From Bryoerythrophyllum caledonicum (Eukaryota; Streptophyta; Bryopsida; Pottiales; Pottiaceae), in NCBI GenBank assembly GCA_963971425.1, contig OZ020517.1, positions 1,304,501-1,368,500 of the forward strand: a stretch of 64,000 bases of DNA, given 5' to 3'. This document shows, in pieces, positions 5,960-21,540 of the stretch (position 1 is its first letter; each line of letters starts with the position of its first letter). The position numbers and the translations under genes were made by a program. The notes under the pieces were generated by a model that made no database searches, was not told the origin of the DNA, and saw only the letters and a list, made by a program, of their open reading frames with translations.

Positions 5960-6062
5960 AGTTATATTAGACTAGAATGCAAGCCTAACCCATGCCCTCT
6001 AGATATAGGCTCAATGGTGGAACAAACATACACTTTATTCACGTCAGCCTCGTTTGGAGGCC
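5960..6062 (+). mobile_element. LINE 3'-end fragment
   Basis: The segment around 6010-6055 (TGGTGGAACAAACATACACTT, then TATTCACGTCAGCCTCGTTTGGAGGCC) matches the 3' terminal part of the LINE copies at 9708-10468 and 20323-21540, including the CACTTTATTCACG motif and the short hairpin of GGTCTCC type. Only the tail end of the 3' untranslated region is present. It could alternatively be a SINE that shares the LINE tail. Confidence 0.5.
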
Positions 6063-6845: not shown

Positions 6846-7330
6846 GTGCATATACATACCATTATGTGGGTGAAACCACCCCATGACATTAAACCATATT
6901 ATGTACAACACGGTGACATTCAAATTGGCGTTTTTGCAATTTCAGGGACAATGTCCATAGTGCTGCCAACTTTGATGCCCTCCACATGGCTGAAAATTTA
7001 TCAGTTTACTATGAAAGTTTTGAGAATTTTTTATTTTCCTATGGGATTTTTGGAATGAGACCATCTCTATGTTGATTACCTCTGTGAAAATTTTCAAGTC
7101 CAAAAGATCTACACAAAAATACATATTCCAAATCTACCAACATGTGTAGTTGTGAGAAACAATGGGGAAAGTTTTTCACTACTTCCAACTTCGACAATCT
7201 CCATAGGGTTGAAAATTCCTTGATTTAAGATGAAGTTTTTGGCACAAGATCATCTCTATGGTGATAACATGTGGAAAAAATTTCAAGGCCAACATATATA
7301 GAAATTGTAAGACATGAGATATTCTAATGA
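6846..7330 (-). repeat. inverted copy of the ~185-base tandem repeat family
   Basis: Read on the minus strand this matches the array at 15340-16340: the units share TGTTGGTAGATTTGGAATA, TCAACATAGAGATGGTCTC and GTCAAAGTTGG. The unique shoulder (minus strand CCAATTTGAATGTCACC, running on to the GTGGTTTCACC block at 6850-6900) matches 16150-16340. About two units are present here against four to five at 15.3 kb, so the copy is shorter but has the same border. Non-coding. Confidence 0.65.
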
Positions 7331-8228: not shown

Positions 8229-8609
8229 TGATGGGTGCTACTGATGTGGCTCTAAGTAGAGATGGTTGAGGGTTTCAGGGGTGTCGTTTTAATATGGAAT
8301 GGTGGGTGGCAAGAGAGATATTTTAGTCTGCACCCGATTCAATCTTCGTGTCAGAGTGATACATATGTCAATATATGTGTGGACCGTATAACTTTTGAGC
8401 ATGATTGGTGTGACGGTGGTTTTGTCTGTGTGTACACAATGTGGTAAGCATGAATTACGTGTTGGTTAATTTAGACACAAATTATTTGTCAAGTGGGCCT
8501 TGTTTGTGATGGGTTTTTTAAATCATGAGAGTTTGTCCTTTAGCAGAATATTGGTAATATAGCATCAACTAATAATATGATGGTGTTTTGGAGGATTTAG
8601 TATAAATGA

Positions 8610-9322
8610 CTATGGGGGATCGTGGATTGTGGGTATTGGTTGGTTATTTTCAATGCGTCTTTTGTGTAGTAATATAGACATGGCATGGTGGATGGCGATG
8701 GGGATAATATTTTTAAATGTGTGTTTAATGTTGGTGATGGGGAGTTTAAATCTCTCGGCAAGTGTTGTTATTGGTGGGGTATGCAATGTGGCTCAAGCCC
8801 CAGCTGTGACAATGATGATAGGATTGACTTTCCAACCATGGCTAATTATACTATCAAGCAGCGGTTGATATTTAATGGTTTTGTTTAGAATTGTTTGAGT
8901 TGAAAATCGGTCATTATAATATGCAAATTCAATAAATTGTGTTGTTAAATTTGGGTTTATATTGGTGGAAGAGTTGGAGGGCCTCGTATATCAAGCCTAA
9001 ATTGAGCGTTACACTAGCAACGGGGAAGGAGGCATGTGCATGGAAGGAGCCATGGGAGGATGGTATTTTCCGGTGGGTTATTATTGTAGGTGCCTGCATT
9101 CATGAAGGTGTAACAACGGGATTTATTGGAGGAAATTAAAAAAATTCTAAGTTCCCATGCAGCTTTGTTATGTCGTTTGGTGATTAGTGCGTGGATGTGA
9201 GGATGTTGACATTTTAACAAAAGATGATGCCATGTGTCAGGATCAGTGGAGTTGCATATGGAGCACGTTATAGTGGGAGATTTGATATGTCCAAAGAATA
9301 GTTGTTTTCGGGCGTTTCCCAT
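8610..9322 (-). pseudogene. LINE B: CCHC zinc finger and restriction-like endonuclease (RLE)
   Basis: The finger reads CSICNSTDPDTWHHLLLKC, preceded by MGNARKQLFFG. The endonuclease follows in other frames: ISHGWKVNPIIIVTAGA and FKNIIPIAIHHAMSILLHKR align with the better preserved RLE of LINE C (20.9-21.3 kb: LKPDI, IQFIEFTYCNDRFS, KINKYQPLIDDI, PLIVIRAGARATT). PD, then D/E, then K..KY is the RLE signature of R2/R4-type LINEs; this domain nicks the target for reverse-transcription priming. The frame is interrupted by stops, and the KPDI part is poorly preserved in this copy. Confidence 0.65.
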
Positions 9323-9539
9323 GTATTGTCCAGTTCGGAATTTAATGAGGCAAGTAATTTGGGCTTCAGTGATGGTTGAGTCATTCCAAAAGTCAGTTGA
9401 AAGTTTTGTATCAATGTCAGTGTTATTAAGCCATTTTTCTATGTTGGAAAATTGTGTTGCTATAATTTCTAAGTTACGAATTCTATCATATTTTAGTAAA
9501 TATTTATCTAAAAATCGTATTGGGCCATTGTCTGGGGAA

Positions 9540-9692
9540 TTGGGGAATTTGTCATGTTAGGCCATTGGTCTTGGTGATAATAGTATGAGGTGGGATGTGC
9601 AAATTCATGTAGTTTGGAAGCATATTTATAAGGTTTATTAGTGCCTTCTTTGGCCAGTTTGTCGGCTTGTTCATTGCCCATTATATTGGTGT
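9540..9692 (-). pseudogene. LINE B: RNase H, C-terminal piece
   Basis: The frame reads KVKAHTNIMGNEQADKLAKE, the classical RNase H1 end (VKAH..I.GNE.AD.LAKEG) holding the last catalytic Asp. It continues directly from the N-terminal piece at 10484-10880; the 15-base duplication GGGCTTTAACTTTGA marks the point where LINE A separated the two. Confidence 0.75.
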
Positions 9693-9707
9693 GGGCTTTA
9701 ACTTTGA

Positions 9708-10468
9708 AGAAGAAGAAGAAGAAGAACGCCGGTCTCCAAAGGAGACCGGCGTGAATAAAGTGTCTGTTCGTTCCACTACTAAGACCAAGCCCACTGGACA
9801 AGGAATTAGTAAGCTGGGACTACTTCCCTCTCTCGAGGGTACACTATGTACCAAGTAGCCAAAGAACCCCAAACCAACCAACCGTCCAACAAATCACAAA
9901 CTAAGCAACTTTAACACAAAGGATGTCCGGTTTGAGCCTAGCGTTGCAATGACATCTTTGGGTCATACATGAGCATGGGGGTAGCCAAGGGGGGACCGTA
10001 TTTTCTTGTGGATTGTTATTATCAGTGCCGGCGTTCATTAGTATAAAACATCTCGATTTATTGTAGGAGGTGATTAGTTTTCGGACTTCCCATGCCGCTT
10101 TATTATGTCTTTTAACAATTAGAGAGTGTGTGTGGTGGTTTTGGCATTTGAGTAGAACATGAAGCCATGTGTCGGGATCCGTTGAGGGGCATATGGGGCA
10201 TGTTATGGATGGGAATCTTTCTATTCCAAAGAAGAGTTGTTTGCGAGCATTTCCCATATACTGACCAGTACGGAATTTGATGAGGCATGTTATTTGTGAG
10301 TCTGAGATGATGGGGTTTTTCCAAAAGTTTCTAGAGAGTTCATTGTCTATGTCATTATTGTTAGTCCATTTTTCTATGTTAGGAATGTTTTCTGAGATTG
10401 TGTCAAGGTTGTTGTAGAGGTCTTGTTTCTTGAGATATTTGCCCAAGAATCTGATTGGGCCTTTGTCA
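9708..10468 (-). mobile_element. LINE A: short 5'-truncated LINE inserted into LINE B
   Basis: Insertion borders are fixed by the 15-base direct repeat GGGCTTTAACTTTGA at 9693-9707 and 10469-10483. On the minus strand the element starts in the region upstream of the CCHC finger (GPIRFLGKYLKKQDLYNN), contains an open frame at 10446-9901 with CPICPSTDPDTWLHVLLKC, and ends after LKPDILCVKVA. The RLE present in LINE C is absent, about 480 bases being deleted. The 3' end has the family's CACTTTATTCACGCCGG motif, a hairpin (GGTCTCCTTTGGAGACC) and a (TTC)n tail at 9708-9725. It transposed by target-primed reverse transcription with help from elsewhere, as it encodes no polymerase. Confidence 0.85.
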
Positions 10469-10483
10469 GGGCTTTAACTTTGA

Positions 10484-10880
10484 GTAGTATAGTGGGGTGT
10501 GTTCTTCTGAGTAGGAGATGAATTATTGAAGTTAAGAGGATTTGGTCCGGATGGTTATTATGAGATGTTGGATGTTTGATGTGGGTATTGAAAAGATAAA
10601 GGATATTAAGGCAATCTGTGAAGATATATGCTAGTTCATTTGGGAATTGTTTAAGAATAATTTTCAAAGTTTTATGAAGAGCAATCATTTCAGCTCGTAG
10701 AATGTTTTGTAGGCCAGGTAATCGATTGGAGATGTTTAATTTCTTTTTACAGTTGTGGATACCATATCTGGCAGCTTCGTTTTTCCATATGTCAAGACTA
10801 GTTTCAATAGGTTTTGTGAAGGATCCATCTGTATAGTAACAAAATTCCGGGTTGAATTTTCAGAGGCTTGTGTTATAATG
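10484..10880 (-). pseudogene. LINE B: RNase H, N-terminal piece
   Basis: Catalytic motifs in order: CYYTDGSFTKPIETS (first Asp), ILRAEMIALHKTL (Glu) and NELAYIFTDCLNILYLF (second Asp), ending in LLKVKA at the insertion point of LINE A. A stop separates it from the preceding domain. RNase H would remove the RNA strand after first-strand synthesis. Confidence 0.75.
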
Positions 10881-12150
10881 TGGGTGAGGTGGGAGAAGAT
10901 GAGTATTACTATAATGAGAACGGGGATAAGGGAGGGTGGACCAGAGTTTTTTCTGATTGATTTTGATTTGGAATGGGGCCGGTGGTGCTGGGTTAGTGTA
11001 AATATAGTCAATGCCTAGGGATTGTATTGTTGTGTGGATTAAAGCTAATTGTTCAACAGTACATATGATATAGGATTTGTGATGTATACATAAAATTTGT
11101 AGAGTAGATGGTTCGATGTATTTTTTGTTAGATGTAGTACTAATAATGGGTACGGTATATGTGATGGTATCGACATCAAAGAGTGTAATGATGTGTGTAT
11201 CAGGGAATGGTCCTGTAAATGGTGTAGGATTTTTACACCAATTTGTGTCTGGTGCAATTATGAAAGTTATATAATTTGGGTGTTGTTGTGCGGCTAATTT
11301 GACCCAATGTATGGCTTGTTGGACATCTTTATTGGTGTGTGGATGTGCAAGTCCTATGCCATGCCATTTGAAATCAAATGCTTTCCCTAGTGAACCAAAG
11401 ACTTTGTCTCGGTCAAAAGGTGAAAAAAATTTATTTAGAGCTGTAGGGCAAGTTATTGGTGATGAGAAGTATGTATGTTGTATGTCAAATACCTTTGTTA
11501 GAGAGTGAAGGATTTCAGTTGATAAAGTATATTTTGCCAATTTAAGGGGGAGTTTGTTGAAGAGTTGGGGTTTATATCGTTGGTATAGCCAGATTATTTC
11601 AGTTTCAAAGGATTGGGTACGTGGAGTGATGTCAATAAGATTGTGGTTAGATTGGTGGTATTGTTTCCATAACCATTTCAATCGTGTAGTGGGTATGGTG
11701 GTAAGGTGATATCCATTGTGTTCATAGAGGTGAGCGTTTTCATTTTGGATTATTATTGTCGGTGTGGAGATGTTAATATCGGTTTCTGGGTTACATTCTG
11801 TGGTAGAAATTGAAAGGAGTGGGACGTTTGTAAGGGGGTGGACATAGCCGGTATCAGCGGTTTGTATGTGGGGATGGTGGGTCGCTATGATATTGGCATA
11901 GTGGTTGAATTGTTGTTGTTGGAAGTAATGGATGAGGAGTGAGATGTTGTGGTTAATAACGGTTGTGTTATTCCATGGAAATAGATGGCGTTGAGGTTGC
12001 CATTTCATATATTGTGTGTTGTTATTGAGTATCCATTGACAGAGAAATGTTTTGTCATTTTTTACAATGTTATTAATATTGGTGTATTTCCATGTGCGAT
12101 GGTGTACTATCTTGAAAATAGGATATGTAGAAGGCTTTTTAAGTATCTGT
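10880..12150 (-). pseudogene. LINE B: domain resembling PCIF1-type adenosine methyltransferase
   Basis: A long open frame (12008-10860, extending upstream to about 12150) lies between the reverse transcriptase and RNase H. Its core reads NKFFSPFDRDKVFGSLGKAF, then DFKWHGIGLAHPHTNKDVQQ, then NYITFIIAPDTNWCKNPTPF and PSTLQILCIHHKSY. The spacing recalls the PCIF1 cap-methyltransferase fold as I remember it: FGS.G...DF, a turn with NPPF, then a FIVFIPEW..PPTP strand. The catalytic NPPF is not present (AHPH stands there), so activity is doubtful even in an intact parent. An upstream helical part (WLWKQYHQSNHNLID, EIIWLYQRYKPQLF) precedes it. The assignment is from memory of the family and is not verified. 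Confidence 0.45.
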
Positions 12151-13920
12151 GAGGGAGGGTGTGAGATTGATGTTATTATGTAGCAAGGAGGGGTCAGGGG
12201 TTGGTGTGGTTGGCGTTGTACTATTGTTGTTTATGGTAATGTATAGGTGTTTTAACGTATGTGGTGGGTAATGTAGGGTGCATATCGTAGGACATTGTTT
12301 GGTACATGTGGGTTGACAGAACAGTTGTGTGGCAATGTAAAGTGTTGTTTTGATTAGTTTTATGGGGGTGTTGTAAGAGAGTTTGAAATCATTGTGGTCC
12401 ATCAAGCGTGTCTCGTTAGGTAGAGTAATATGTTGGAGTTTTGTAATTTTATATGTATGAAGTTTTTGTAGTAATTTGTTTAAGAGTGCGTTATTTAAGT
12501 TGGGTAATAGTTCGGTTTCGTTGTTCCAAATTTGTTCAAGTGGTGATGGTTTTAGTAAGAATTGTTCAAGAGTGCTACAAAGATGAATGCCCGCGTAGGT
12601 TTTTAATAGGAATATAGTACGGGTGATGGGAGAACGGATGCAGTTTGATTCTTTGAGGCATGTGAGGAGTTGAGATCCGCCGTATTTAGCAAGAATAAAT
12701 TTTAGAAGACCTTTATATATAATTCCAAGTTTTCCTTTGTCATTCAATGCTTTAATTAATTGGTCTCCTATACAACAGAAGTATGCATTTTTTAGTGAGA
12801 AGGCATCCATGCCATATAAATTTATTGGAAGTTGGGTAATAATATTGGACATGTATTTGGAAAGACCACAAATGGTTTTATGGAGTGCGATGATTTTCTT
12901 GTCTAGTTTTTTGATAGCAGGCATAGAATATGGTACTGAGTAAAAGTTGTATGCTATGCCTGCTCTTATTATAGTATCAGCCATATGGATTTTTTGTTTC
13001 ATTGTACATGGGCATGTTATAAAGTCACTGCTGCATTGTTTGATTAATTTGGTAGTTGTGGTCTGTATTTGTATCTTCCATTTTAAAGAAGCTACAAGCT
13101 GAAGTCCAAGGTAGGGATATGGTTTATTTGGATGTAAAGTGGGTATGGATTGTCCACAAAAAATAATATTTGCTACTTGTAAATGGGCTTTGAATGTGGT
13201 TGGGTTTAGTTTTGATTTGTTAAGGCTACCTATTAGTGCGCACTTGGATACTCCAAGGTCCATACCGGTCCAATGACAGAATCTGTCAAGTTTATCAAGT
13301 TGAATTTGTATGGATTGTAGTTGGGCGGTTAGAGCTGCTAGGTCATCAGCATATGCAACAAAATTAACGGTGGTGTTAGATGTTTGGAAAGTATAGCCAT
13401 TATCACCACGTTGTAGCCACCTAAGTAATGGTTCGAGGAAAATGATGAAAAGATATGGACTTAGTGTATCCCCTTGGATAGTTCCTCGTTGAATGGGAAT
13501 TGGACATGTTTGTCCAAAGTGTTTGCCTATATATGTAGATTGGATTTAGAGTATATGTCTCCAATAAGAGCAACGGCTTCTAAAGGGTATCATAAATCAT
13601 GCATGATGGCAAGTAGACGAGCATGATCAATGGATCCAAAAGCATTTTTGAAGTCTATGTACAAAATGTAGATGTCTTGATTTGTATATTTGGCATCTTC
13701 GAGGGCGGAAATGATGGTTTGGAGTTGTCTGGCTGTACCTCTTTATGCTCTAAAACCCTCTTGACTGTCGTGAAGAATGCGGTGTTTTTCACCGTAGGTG
13801 GATAAAATGGATGTTAATGTACTCGTAAATGGTTTATATATTGTATTTGCCAGTGCAATTGGTCGGTGGTTGGGGAGATAAGATGGATCACCTTTTTTAT
13901 AGAGAAGAATTGTTAAAGAT
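12139..13920 (-). pseudogene. LINE B: reverse transcriptase
   Basis: The minus strand encodes LINE-type RT motifs: LYKKGDPSYLPNHRPIALAN, then IYILYIDFKNAFGSIDHARL (first catalytic Asp), PIQRGTIQGDTLSPYLFIIF and TVNFVAYADDLAALTAQL (YADD box). A long open stretch (13263-12139) carries the thumb and linker. Three stops lie between 13750 and 13540; the rest is open. The frame begins close to the first RT motifs, so the finger region and anything N-terminal are lost. Confidence 0.85.
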
Positions 13921-14349: not shown

Positions 14350-15262
14350 TCTGTTAGAACAGTTCAAAGGTTAGTGATTTTTTTTTTAAAAGATAAATTT
14401 TACAAGTGCAAACCTTGCTGTAGAAATCACGTTAAAAACATAGTGATAAAGATGTTCATAGTATTTTGCGTTACACAAAAAGTGATCATTGCTCATTTTC
14501 AGAGATTACTAATATATACCCTATTCGAGTGTGTATACGTACTATTTGAGGCTCTTACGTAGGCATGCCATTTTAGTCGAATTGCAGTCAAAAAATCTTT
14601 TTTGACACCTTGTCACATGTCTCAGCAATTAACTTTTGCTCAGAAGTACTGTGGATGGAGTGCAGAAGAGTGGGAACATATTGTTTTTATACAAATGAAT
14701 CTATCTTTGAAATTGAAAAAAATTCTAGACAAATTTATATTTTGAGAAGTGCATATGAGCGCTTTTACCAAGTTGTATAGTTCCTACTTTTAAAAGTGGA
14801 CGGACTTCTTTAATGATTTGGGGCGCATTTGCTAGAGGACAAAAGTCAGAACTTGTCATTATGCCTAAAAATTTAGGTTTTGCTAAGGATTATATAGAAA
14901 TGGTCTACAACGGCAAATTGGTTTATTTCATGAATCAAGTTCCACCATCAGTGCTTATAGAAGAAAGCGCACCCGTCCATTGCAACAAGATATGTGAAGA
15001 ATGGAGTCAAGCACACGTTTTTGAGAAGCTCAATTGGCCTACAAACTCTCCTAATCTCAATCCGATTGGGAGCCTCTGGACGATGCTAAAAGATGTTGTG
15101 CAATATGGCAAGGCATGACCTAGAAACTTAGATGCATTGAAGGTAGTTCTAGAAAGCGAGTAGAAGTCAGTTAATGGTACAAAGCTCCTTCAACTATGTC
15201 ATTCTTTGCCCTCTAGGTTACAAGCAGTGATTGACGCTAATCGAAGACATACTCGTTGGTAG
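14350..15262 (+). pseudogene. Tc1-like transposase relic 1
   Basis: Frames on the plus strand match a Tc1 transposase: VRTVQRLV (DNA-binding part, about 14352-14380), QQLTFAQKYCGWSAEEWEHI then VFTNESIFEI (usually FSDESKF), SLMIWGAFARGQKSEL, then LIEESAPVHCNK (usually MQDNAPIH) and NWPTNSPNLNPIGSLWTMLK (usually NLNPIENLW), ending RRHTRW at 15262. The first two Asp positions read N and E here and the final Glu reads G, and several stops and shifts occur, so it is inactive. The unusual residues may reflect decay. Terminal repeats were not found. Confidence 0.75.
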
Positions 15263-15339
15263 ATTTGGATTTATTTTTTATGTAGATATTTTGGACTTTT
15301 AATTTTCACACATTTAATCAACATAGAGCCGTTCTTATG

Positions 15340-16340
15340 CCAAAAATTTCATGGTCAAATAAAAAAAATCAATCTTTAGGAGGGTGTCAAAGTTGGCAGC
15401 CATGAAACTATTCTCACAGCTACCCCATGTTTGTAAATTTTGAATATCTTTTTTTTTATTCATCTCCTGGCCTTGAAATTTGGCACACATGTTTCTCATA
15501 AAGAAATCATTCTTTTCCAAAAATTTCATGGTGAACTAGCAATTTTGAGCCTTAGAGTGGGTGTCAAAGTTGGAAGTAGTAAAAAGCTTTCCCCTCTATA
15601 TCTCACAACTACACATGTTGGTAGATTTTGAATACATTTTTTTGAATACATCTTTTGGCCTTTAATTTTTTTCTACATGTTATCAACATAGAAATGATCT
15701 TGTACCAAAAACTTCATCCTAAATCAACAAATTTTCAAACCTAGGGAGGTTGTCGAAGTTGGAAGTAGTGAAAAGCTTTTCCCATTGTTTCTCACAACTA
15801 CACATGTTGGTAGATTTGGAATATGTATATTTTTGTAGATCTTTTGGACTCAAAAAATTTCACACATGTAATCAACATAGAGATGGTCTCACGCCAAAAA
15901 TCCCATGCCCAAATCAAATTTCTCAATCTTTGGGACGGTGTCAAAGTTGGTAGCAGTGAAACTTTTTTCACTGCTACCCCATGTTGGTAGAATTTGAATA
16001 CATTTCTTGGACTTGAAATTTGGCACACATATTTTCAACATAGAAATTATCTTTAGCTCAAAATATCATGGTAAACTAACAATTTTTCAGCCCTATGGAG
16101 GGCGTCAAAGTTGGGAGCAGTGTCGACACTATCCCTGAATTTGCAAAAACTCCAATTTGAATGTCACCCTATTGTATAACCCCTTTGTATTAATGTATAA
16201 ATGTAGCTGCACATTGCATAGCTCATCATCTTAGGTTACAAAACATACAACATGCACTTATAAGCTACCTTCTTGCTATAGAATGAAAGGAGGTTGTATA
16301 TTATACAATTTTATGCCATGTGGTGGTTTCACAACAACCA
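15340..16340 (+). repeat. tandem array, four to five ~185-base units, with unique shoulder
   Basis: Units begin near 15345, 15520, 15709, 15896 and 16060 and share AAATTTCATGGTNAA, GTCAAAGTTGGNAGNAGTGAA, CACATGTTGGTAGATTT and ATCAACATAGAAATGATC. The array starts about 80 bases after the stop of the Tc1 relic. The right shoulder (16150-16340) also occurs in the inverted copy at 6846-7330, so array and shoulder belong to one mobile unit. Confidence 0.7.
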
Positions 16341-17255: not shown

Positions 17256-18021
17256 GGATGAGTGAGTACCTAGTCATTGTTTGTAAGAAGGCTTGTTGAG
17301 AGTGAGAAATTTACTTATGTTGCCCTATATGAATTATGGTTGTGGCATTCATTGCTCTAGCGGCGTGGTATTGCCATTGACGATTAATCACGCATGCATC
17401 TTGTTTTTTTTCACTATTGTCTACTCTTGTGCTAGTCTATGGTTAGTTATGGCCGTCTTCAATATTTCGAATGCACAATTGAACATACACCAAATGGTGA
17501 AAATGTAGGTAAGAATTTACTCTCTACTTATTAGCAGAGATAAATTGTAGCCTTTAAAAATAATTTGAGATAATCTTCAAAATCCAATGTATTCTTGTGT
17601 TTGTTTTAAAGGGCTGATGTATTTTCCTTTCTTTCTTGAGGTGAAAATGCCCTCTTATGAAAGTTGTTGTGATTGAGGAAATTTCCTTCGAGTAAAATTG
17701 CAGTGGTTGTAGAAATGCTCTTGTTATGGTATTGCCCTTTTAGTGAAAATAGCCTCATTGTAGAAATACCATGTAATGAGAATCTCCTTGTAGTTGAAAT
17801 GCCTTCGCAGTGCACATGCCATAGTAGTGAAAATGCTCTTGTAGTAAACGTGCCATGCTAGTGAGAATGCCATGGTAGTGAAAGTGTCCTCGTAGTGAAA
17901 TTGCTCTCGTAGATGAAAATGCCCTTGTAGTGAGAATGTTATGGTAGTGAAAATGCCCTCGTAGTGAAATTGCTCTCGTAGGTTATTGAGTACTCAGTCG
18001 TTGCTTGTAAGAAGGCTCGTT
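17256..18021 (+). repeat. ~18-base minisatellite with flanking direct repeats
   Basis: From about 17640 to 17985 a unit near GTAGTGAAAATGCCCTC repeats some 18-20 times with variants (GTAGTGAAATTGCTCTC, GTAGTGAGAATGCCATG). A direct repeat containing TTGTAAGAAGGCT and GTTG lies on both sides, at about 17267-17299 and 17987-18021. The left flank also carries a diverged direct repeat pair (17165-17250 against 17510-17635, sharing GAGNTAATCTT and TCCAANGTATTC). Non-coding. Confidence 0.65.
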
Positions 18022-20244: not shown

Positions 20245-20322
20245 ACAATGCAAGTTGCCAAGAGCTTTTTACACTACTCCCCGTCTCAAAAAAAGTGCAA
20301 TTGTCAACTCTACAGTGCTAAC

Positions 20323-21268
20323 TCCCAATAAAAGCCCGGTTAGGTTCTTGAGCAAATACCTCAAAAAACAAGATCTATATAACAACATGGACACAATTTT
20401 AGATAACTTTCCTAACATAGAAAAGTGGACTAGTAACTACAACACAGACAATGAACTCTCTACAAATTTCTGGAACAACCCCATCATCACCGACTCACAA
20501 ATAACATGCCTTATCAAATTTCGTACCGGACAATACATGGGAAACGCCCAAAAACAACTCTTCTTTGGAATAGAAAGATTTCCATCCATAACATGGCCAA
20601 TATGCACTTCCATGGATCACGACACATGGCTACATGTTTTATTTTAATGTCATAACCACCACATATACTCCCTAATTGTCAAAAGACATAACAAAGCCGT
20701 ATGGGAAATCCGTACATTAATCACCTCCCACAACAAATAGAGATGTATTATCCTTATGAATGCCGACACCTTTAATAACAACCCACAAGAAAACACGGCT
20801 CCACCATGGCTACTCCCATGTACATGTGAAACTCAACAATGCCACTGCAATGCTCGACTCAAACCGGACATACTCTCCGTTAGAAGCCTACCATACAACG
20901 ACCCCTCACCCGACCACACAAACCAAGACTACACCATTCAATTCATCGAATTTACATACTGTAATGACAGATTCTCCCCAGAAACAATCAAAAACAAAAT
21001 CAATAAATACCAACCCCTTATTGATGACATCACTACCCTCGGATGGAAAGCGGACCCCCTTATTGTAATCAGAGCCGGCGCTCGCGCCACCACCTTTATC
21101 CCATCTATAAAAACCCTAGAAGATACCTTCAAAATTCCTATTGATACAATCACAAACACTTTAAAAAATATTAACATCATTGCCACACAACATGCTATGT
21201 CCATCCTTCTACATGAACGCAAAATTGAAAACAACCAAGCCCTTCCCGATACACAAGACCCCCCATAA
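20323..21268 (+). pseudogene. LINE C: C-terminal polyprotein part (CCHC finger and RLE)
   Basis: One frame reads VRFLSKYLKKQDLYNNMD, then FRTGQYMGNAQKQLFFG, then a finger-like CTSMDHDTWLHVLF that has lost its final Cys to a stop at about 20645; a second stop lies near 20740. From 20756 it is open to the natural stop at 21268: CHCNARLKPDI, YTIQFIEFTYCNDRFSPE, KINKYQPLIDDITTLGWKAD, PLIVIRAGARATTFIPSI, ATQHAMSILLHERKIENN. This is the best preserved RLE in the window: the KPD, then E, then K..KY spacing is intact. Inactive because of the stops and the missing reverse transcriptase. Confidence 0.75.
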
Positions 21269-21540
21269 AATTTCCCCTTTATTCTATTTTTAGTCCCTGA
21301 CATTGCGAAAAACACACCCTCCTCTCCATTTTTCTCTTCTCTCTCTCTCTCCTCCCCCCTCCCTCCTTCCTTGTTACTCTTTTGCTTGGTTGGTTTTGTG
21401 GTTTTTTGGCTACTTGTTACATAGTGTTTACCCTCGAAAGGGGGAAGTAGTTCCAGCTTACTAATTCCTTGTCCGGTGGAAATGGTCTTAGTAGTGGAAC
21501 AAATAGACACTTTATTCACGCCGGCCTCTTCTTCTTCTTC
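20323..21540 (+). mobile_element. LINE C: 5'-truncated LINE inserted in repeat R2
   Basis: The element is bounded by TCTACAGTGCTA at 20309-20320 and 21539-21550, a target duplication whose first two bases may belong to the tail. It starts only a few bases upstream of where LINE A starts, carries the CCHC finger and full RLE, then a 3' untranslated part with CACTTTATTCACGCCGG and a (TTC)n tail at 21527-21540. It shares the 3' end with LINE A (GGAAGTAGTTCCAGCTTACT here, GGAAGTAGTCCCAGCTTACT there). Confidence 0.85.

Follow-up and report, generated by a model that had tools for sequence, protein, structure and literature searches.

How do a reverse transcriptase (RT), a domain resembling the cap methyltransferase PCIF1, an RNase H and a restriction-like endonuclease (RLE) come to lie in that order on one strand, and what would a PCIF1-like domain do in a long interspersed nuclear element (LINE)? 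The question is raised by a 64,000-nucleotide stretch of Bryoerythrophyllum caledonicum (OZ020517.1, positions 1,304,501-1,368,500; the window), whose minus strand at 8610-13920 holds, 5′ to 3′ and by Pfam scan and motif reading, RT, PCIF1_WW, RNase H, and a CCHC knuckle with RLE-type motifs. An initial annotation took this order for that of a single LINE; the domains and their common strand are real, but they belong to two nested copies. The older of the two is a dead relic, and the younger, a member of the same superfamily, has inserted into it. Relatives elsewhere in the same 437-Mb genome, whose loci bear L-numbers here, point to the reading that we favor and consider likely: a dual-endonuclease, Dualen-like LINE lineage with a 2A-like peptide, an apurinic/apyrimidinic endonuclease (APE), RT, a PCIF1-derived and probably non-catalytic binding module, RNase H, CCHC and an RLE-type nuclease.

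On searching the genome with the PF12237 profile, all 150 scored PCIF1_WW hits, from 2614 first-look candidates, pass the cut-off, and 33 of these 150 rows fall within open frames of 3087 amino acids. The window's own PCIF1-like region as query gave 100 listed matches from 5954 candidates, with frames of 3121, 3124, 3163, 3192 and 3419 amino acids among the matches listed. Fourteen control genomes yielded no PCIF1_WW match, a weak control as the named ones examined are prokaryotes, and no relative turned up in viral-contig or prokaryote-contig collections, which are uninformative on spread. With L012 and L013 joined, the 3087-amino-acid frame could be read (a single 19.5-kb stretch there contains two like-oriented copies that share 89.5% identity across 5.4 kb), and the order in the intact frame is 2A-like peptide, APE, RT, PCIF1-like domain, RNase H, CCHC and RLE-type motifs, with a low-complexity N-terminal part ahead of the 2A-like peptide.

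In L009 the frame is 2355 amino acids long, starts at the 2A-like peptide and has Pfam matches to Exo_endo_phos (2.3e-5; 24.7 bits against a cut-off of 24.5), RVT_1 (4.4e-26), PCIF1_WW (9.9e-12) and RNase_H (4.4e-12), all of which pass. The order RT, PCIF1_WW, RNase_H recurs in all four further copies (L034, L036, L037 and L038), and PCIF1_WW and RNase_H are over the cut-off in each of the five long frames scanned. APE-type matches are present in two of the four further copies (L034 and L036), all under the cut-off; in L037 and L038 the frame opens only within this domain or downstream of it. Side matches to the endonuclease are ExoIII at 0.02 in PDB and one at 0.0036, under the cut-off, in NCBIfam. 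The APE motifs of the lineage were read by eye against those that we take to be characteristic. The catalytic set D-E-D-H-D of RNase H, as given in the relevant section of PMC4640811, was likewise read by eye in the long frames. The intact relatives thus have a dual-nuclease architecture in a single frame, with the RLE-type part assigned by its motifs. What the initial annotation had recognized, RNase H and RLE together in one LINE in the manner of Dualen/RandI, is borne out by these single frames, to which L009 adds the APE match.

The window differs from these frames in a way that alignment makes plain. By blastn it is collinear with L038 at 13915-10469 (L038 1865-5314, 86.5% DNA identity) and again at 9705-8548 (L038 5302-6472, 85.8%), the two segments overlapping by 13 bases on L038, and because this collinearity is interrupted by a copy of another family, A, the window domains come from two elements. 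The nested family-A copy (9716-10471, minus strand) is 95.0% identical in DNA to L009 6124-6686 over 563 bases and, in its second part, 91.6% identical to L009 7176-7317, which is the 3′ untranslated region (UTR) of L009; it is 5′-truncated, has an internal deletion and ends in a (TTC)n tail. Its CCHC and RLE-type segment, with RHN and KPD, is at 9910-10473 (93.6% amino acid identity to family A, and by alignment). A 15-bp target-site duplication, TCAAAGTTAAAGCCC, borders it, with the 5′ copy at 10469-10483 and the 3′ copy at 9693-9707, both on the minus strand.

The interrupted copy, of family B, is likewise on the minus strand and comprises a 5′ piece at 10469-13919 (RT, linker, chromo-like segment, PCIF1-like domain and the first part of RNase H; blastn against L038, with tblastn from 13919) and a 3′ piece at 8548-9705 (the end of RNase H, CCHC and a degraded RLE; blastn against L038). 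It is 5′-truncated, beginning inside the RT fingers at about 13919, and for that reason is without APE and 2A-like peptide; tblastn reveals stop codons as well as two or more changes of frame, and no repeat of more than 7 bases is found at its two ends. RT and the downstream linker occupy 12160-13919 (RVT_1 1.1e-12, YADD at about 13350), with the frame broken near 13540 and the tblastn pieces in two frames with two stops. A weak chromodomain-like segment at 11985-12119 is placed by homology to L009, where Pfam Chromo gives 0.014, under the cut-off, and the PCIF1-like domain, with AHPH replacing NPPF in the alignment, is at 11253-11633 (PF12237, 7.9e-12, over the cut-off). RNase H is split by the nested copy into an N-terminal part at 10551-10841 (TDGS, AEM, FTD; 8.7e-5) and a displaced C-terminal part beyond the insert at 9640-9705 (KVKAH..GNEQAD; 1.1e-4 on an open reading frame piece, with a family-B tblastn piece at 9705-9541), each under the Pfam cut-off, as one would expect when a domain is in two pieces. 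Each of the two elements contributes one CCHC-RLE segment, neither with a Pfam match, that of the old copy being at 8613-9541 with frame changes and stops (tblastn). That domains of two elements have been joined by chance, which the initial annotation named as one thing that would undo its proposal, has in its favor that the window does hold two nested copies; as an account of the lineage it is barely credible, contradicted as it is by the same order in one frame in five of five long frames and by PCIF1-like hits inside frames of more than 3000 amino acids in several families.

Nine of the 33 copies with the 3087-amino-acid frame were fetched for comparison of their ends. At the 5′ end the 383-419 nt upstream of a common anchor are identical in all 36 pairs, and the 3′ UTR is identical in eight of the nine, the other being masked. 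With TTC units removed, the flank repeats of the eight evaluable copies are 12, 12, 10, 6, 10, 12, 12 and 8 bases long; flanks share 10-12 nt in six of the eight, against 3 of 64 cross pairs with at least 10, and 8 of 64 cross pairs reach 8. The 3′ end motif has 3463 occurrences genome-wide at up to two mismatches and its reversed control none. Shared flank words begin with T in nine of ten cases (the eight copies and two window inserts), and the tenth, L020/L021, begins with A unless the preceding TTC is counted; such duplications fit pairing with a UUC tail, the bases common to the tail being ambiguous. Target-site duplications, a constant 3′ end and 5′ truncation, the features of target-primed reverse transcription, are all present, and the best reading of the lineage is a recently active retrotransposon without long terminal repeats.

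Of the nine full copies, four are embedded in antisense orientation within another superfamily copy (L022/L023, L024/L025, L028/L029 and L032/L033), and two of the nine share an insertion point in a related element; for three others related DNA adjoins one side or both, mostly resembling the low-complexity 5′ region, and for two there is none, all as plain counts. Site-specific targeting was considered and rejected: genome-wide patterns gave just a single 3′ junction (matched by two readings that overlap) and two 5′ junctions, and so no general target site. The window also has a third, 5′-truncated family-A copy on the plus strand at 20321-21531 with a 12-base duplication, TCTACAGTGCTA; its truncation point and that of the nested copy are within about 8 bases of each other.

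The C-terminal alignment reads C-x2-C-x9-H-x4-C, then KRHN and KPD, to which the intact rows add IEF and then KIDKY or KINKY. For the RLEs of LINEs the text of PMC5678591 gives a CX2-3CX7-8HX4C knuckle, an RH pair and KX2KY with its first lysine catalytic. The CCHC, RH, PD and KX2KY features of a LINE-type RLE can thus be discerned by eye in this putative nuclease, with a knuckle one residue longer than published.

At the other end of the frame is the 2A-like peptide. LINEs with APE are said, by Odon in 2013, to carry 2A. The core GDIETNPGP is at eight distinct places when 69 loci are taken together with the window, most of them not extending so far upstream, and two degenerate copies were also matched. 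It conforms to the 2A/StopGo core (D/G/C/N)(V/I)ExNPGP (PMC12846837), which makes it a candidate peptide as judged from its sequence; the portion of that article available describes StopGo as active in plants with no natural use by plant viruses found. Degenerate extra copies of the segment that bears the 2A-like peptide lie upstream of the intact one (L013 4403, L026 1415 and, in L012, upstream of 4622).

Between RT and the PCIF1-like domain is a chromo-like segment, for which the best Pfam Chromo value is 0.011, under the cut-off; 7 of 18 members of an alignment of related copies, the window's included, reach E ≤ 1 and none of the 18 the cut-off. Its profile matches CBX4 among structures at E 1.1, and the better part of a poor L009 model matches CHD1 chromodomains (Foldseek probability 0.89, E 0.35). 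A Chromo profile search of the genome listed strong chromodomains only.

What, then, is the domain that follows? The PCIF1_WW profile matches all 18 members of the alignment. On the account in PMC7641849, as far as the excerpt goes, the Pfam family is misannotated, being really a CAPAM-like methyltransferase and not a WW domain, and Pfam scans of L009, the four further long frames and the 18 members gave no WW domain match. The FxSPxxC and FGSxG blocks common to PCIF1 are kept. At the position of the NPPF motif, 38 of 40 rows, L057 included, have AHPH (the set has the window copy as L043, and some rows are identical copies at different places); L008 has APPH and L050 AHLH, and the shorter L007 has ADPH. 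Comparison of the 18-member alignment by hhalign with two PCIF1 segments scores 68%, with p = 4.7e-5, across 115 columns, a p-value that is optimistic because the segments were picked from an earlier profile match, and sets ANPPF against AHPHN, with N and F both changed. The best PF12237 hit in the genome, at 59.2 bits, is itself within a LINE copy, a hint that the host has no canonical contiguous PCIF1 exon.

The initial annotation had spoken of an extra methyltransferase-like domain between RT and RNase H; PCIF1_WW is indeed there, in one frame in the relatives, and it is the loss of NPPF that makes an active methyltransferase doubtful. One could nevertheless suppose an active enzyme with a changed loop (HPH) that methylates the cap-proximal adenosine of the element RNA or another substrate, and the strong conservation of AHPH in those 38 of 40 rows, in families down to about 50% identity, the retained blocks and low ratios of nonsynonymous to synonymous substitution (dN/dS) are all as such an enzyme would have them. 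The sections of the literature at hand tell another story: disruption of NPPF lowers PCIF1 activity (PMC6318281), and a fly PCIF1 with phenylalanine changed to histidine in NPPF goes with absence of N6,2′-O-dimethyladenosine (m6Am) (PMC9479742). With both N and F changed in the lineage, activity is unlikely.

The ratios themselves establish that the PCIF1-like region is under purifying selection (dN/dS 0.10-0.20): within family A they are 0.200 (L009-L034), 0.163 (L009-L037) and 0.098 (L036-L037), and from A to B 0.17, with dS near saturation, as compared with 0.06-0.12 for RT, 0.09-0.13 for RNase H and 0.22-0.33 for the segment after PCIF1. That the region evolves faster than RT in four of five pairs (0.10-0.20 versus 0.06-0.12 overall), and in L009-L034 no more slowly than the linkers (0.16-0.17), is what would be expected of a domain that merely links RT structurally to RNase H and whose resemblance to PCIF1 is a fossil, but the blocks YFSSP..C, FGS.GKAFD and AHPH persist across families and the ratio is below that of the following segment in five of five pairs, and we regard a linker as improbable. 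Since the region is conserved and NPPF lost, it is probably kept for something other than ordinary m6Am formation, and on these sequence features the module is probably non-catalytic and used for binding.

The RT was placed in a tree with three R2 chains, a human L1 chain, a plant L1 from the same genome and two group II intron RTs. The lineage is a clade of its own (100/100) outside R2 and L1, and in the best tree it pairs with R2, at a support of 48/1. Against solved structures R2 proteins are best (9nl2, 4.5e-32), and human L1 (4.7e-21) beats R2Bm (9.7e-15).

Besides the L009-L034 pair and the generous hhalign value, several results weigh against the favored reading. The flank repeats of two of the eight evaluable copies, of 8 and 6 nt, are not above the cross-pair background. 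The C-terminal profile found no solved R2 protein among PDB sequences and the predicted model of that region is unusable (predicted local distance difference test (pLDDT) 35), so the RLE is assigned on motifs read by eye. A profile search ranks PCIF1 structures below two MarR chains, with values (0.36 and 0.61) no better than chance, and the model of the PCIF1 region is poor (pLDDT 44), with no Foldseek hit at E ≤ 0.001. Among RT topologies, neither lineage with L1 (approximately unbiased test, p 0.177) nor R2 with L1 (p 0.454) is rejected.

With a Dualen-like LINE carrying a binding module, the 2A-like peptide would release the low-complexity N-terminal part during translation, RNase H would remove template RNA and one of the two nucleases would make the second cut. 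The PCIF1-like module would most likely serve as a non-catalytic binder, either of the capped RNA of the element itself or of the transcription machinery, and so favor use of full-length template; in PCIF1 the cap is bound by the helical domain, and the NPPF loop is also described, in the part of PMC10544176 consulted. A bolder version, offered tentatively and more apt to fail than to hold, is that a new plant clade of dual-endonuclease LINEs captured a cap methyltransferase that became a pseudoenzyme recognizing its own RNA by the 5′ cap and selecting the full-length capped template, with the 2A and the chromo-like segment completing a self-contained kit for expression and targeting. How a LINE chooses its own full-length RNA is an open question, and for recognition of the RNA 5′ end a conserved, catalytically altered cap-methyltransferase module in a recently active LINE offers a candidate that can be tested. 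The move of LINEs from RLE to APE could also be examined with the help of intact dual-endonuclease copies from a plant-like genome.

As to the surroundings, inverted repeats, 67-88% identical and about 8 kb apart, flank the window LINE (6904-7304 and 15255-16176, with 14759-15118), a DDE_3 transposase remnant lies between them, and the old LINE seems to sit inside a Tc1/mariner-like element. A fragment on the plus strand at 6010-6062 resembles the LINE 3′ tail, and minisatellite-like direct repeats with 17-base spacing are at 17682-17998. Frames near the LINE encode serine hydroxymethyltransferase and B3 domains; rubisco large-subunit frames are at three places in the assembly, and for one of these the nearest PDB chains include those of tobacco, spinach and rice, ahead of one from Chlamydomonas, so that the host is plant-like by its genes.

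Among known systems, the PCIF1/CAPAM cap m6Am methyltransferases share with the lineage a Pfam PCIF1_WW match over the cut-off, whereas the module here has lost NPPF, gives no WW domain match and is embedded in a retrotransposon; in the open-access literature searched on PCIF1 in retroelements no PCIF1-bearing LINE turned up. R2 and other RLE-bearing LINEs include the best solved RT matches and have the same order of CCHC, RH, KPD and KX2KY, but the lineage has APE and RNase H in addition, a CX2CX9HX4C knuckle in place of CX2-3CX7-8HX4C, and an RT outside R2. Plant L1 LINEs have APE, RT and RNase H, as does the lineage, and LINEs with zf-RVT are present in the same genome; the lineage differs in its separate RT, RLE-type end and PCIF1-like domain. 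The first Dualen reportedly has, following Kojima and Fujiwara in 2005, a cysteine protease, and since neither the L009 frame nor L012 2408-4700 has a Pfam match to one, the lineage is called Dualen-like rather than filed as a member. The Dualen group, which occurs in Chlamydomonas (PMC8226300), is marked, in the passages available, by APE and RLE in one element together with RT and RNase H (PMC4640811, PMC3636483). Shared with Dualen/RandI are the two types of endonuclease, RT and an RNase H downstream of it; different are the 2A-like peptide, a host with plant-type genes, the chromo-like segment and, apparently, the PCIF1-like segment, the last two lying between RT and RNase H. The putative dual endonuclease and RNase H make the lineage Dualen-like, set beside Dualen by layout, and the comparison suggests a layout of the known Dualen/RandI kind with the PCIF1-like module as its apparently new element.

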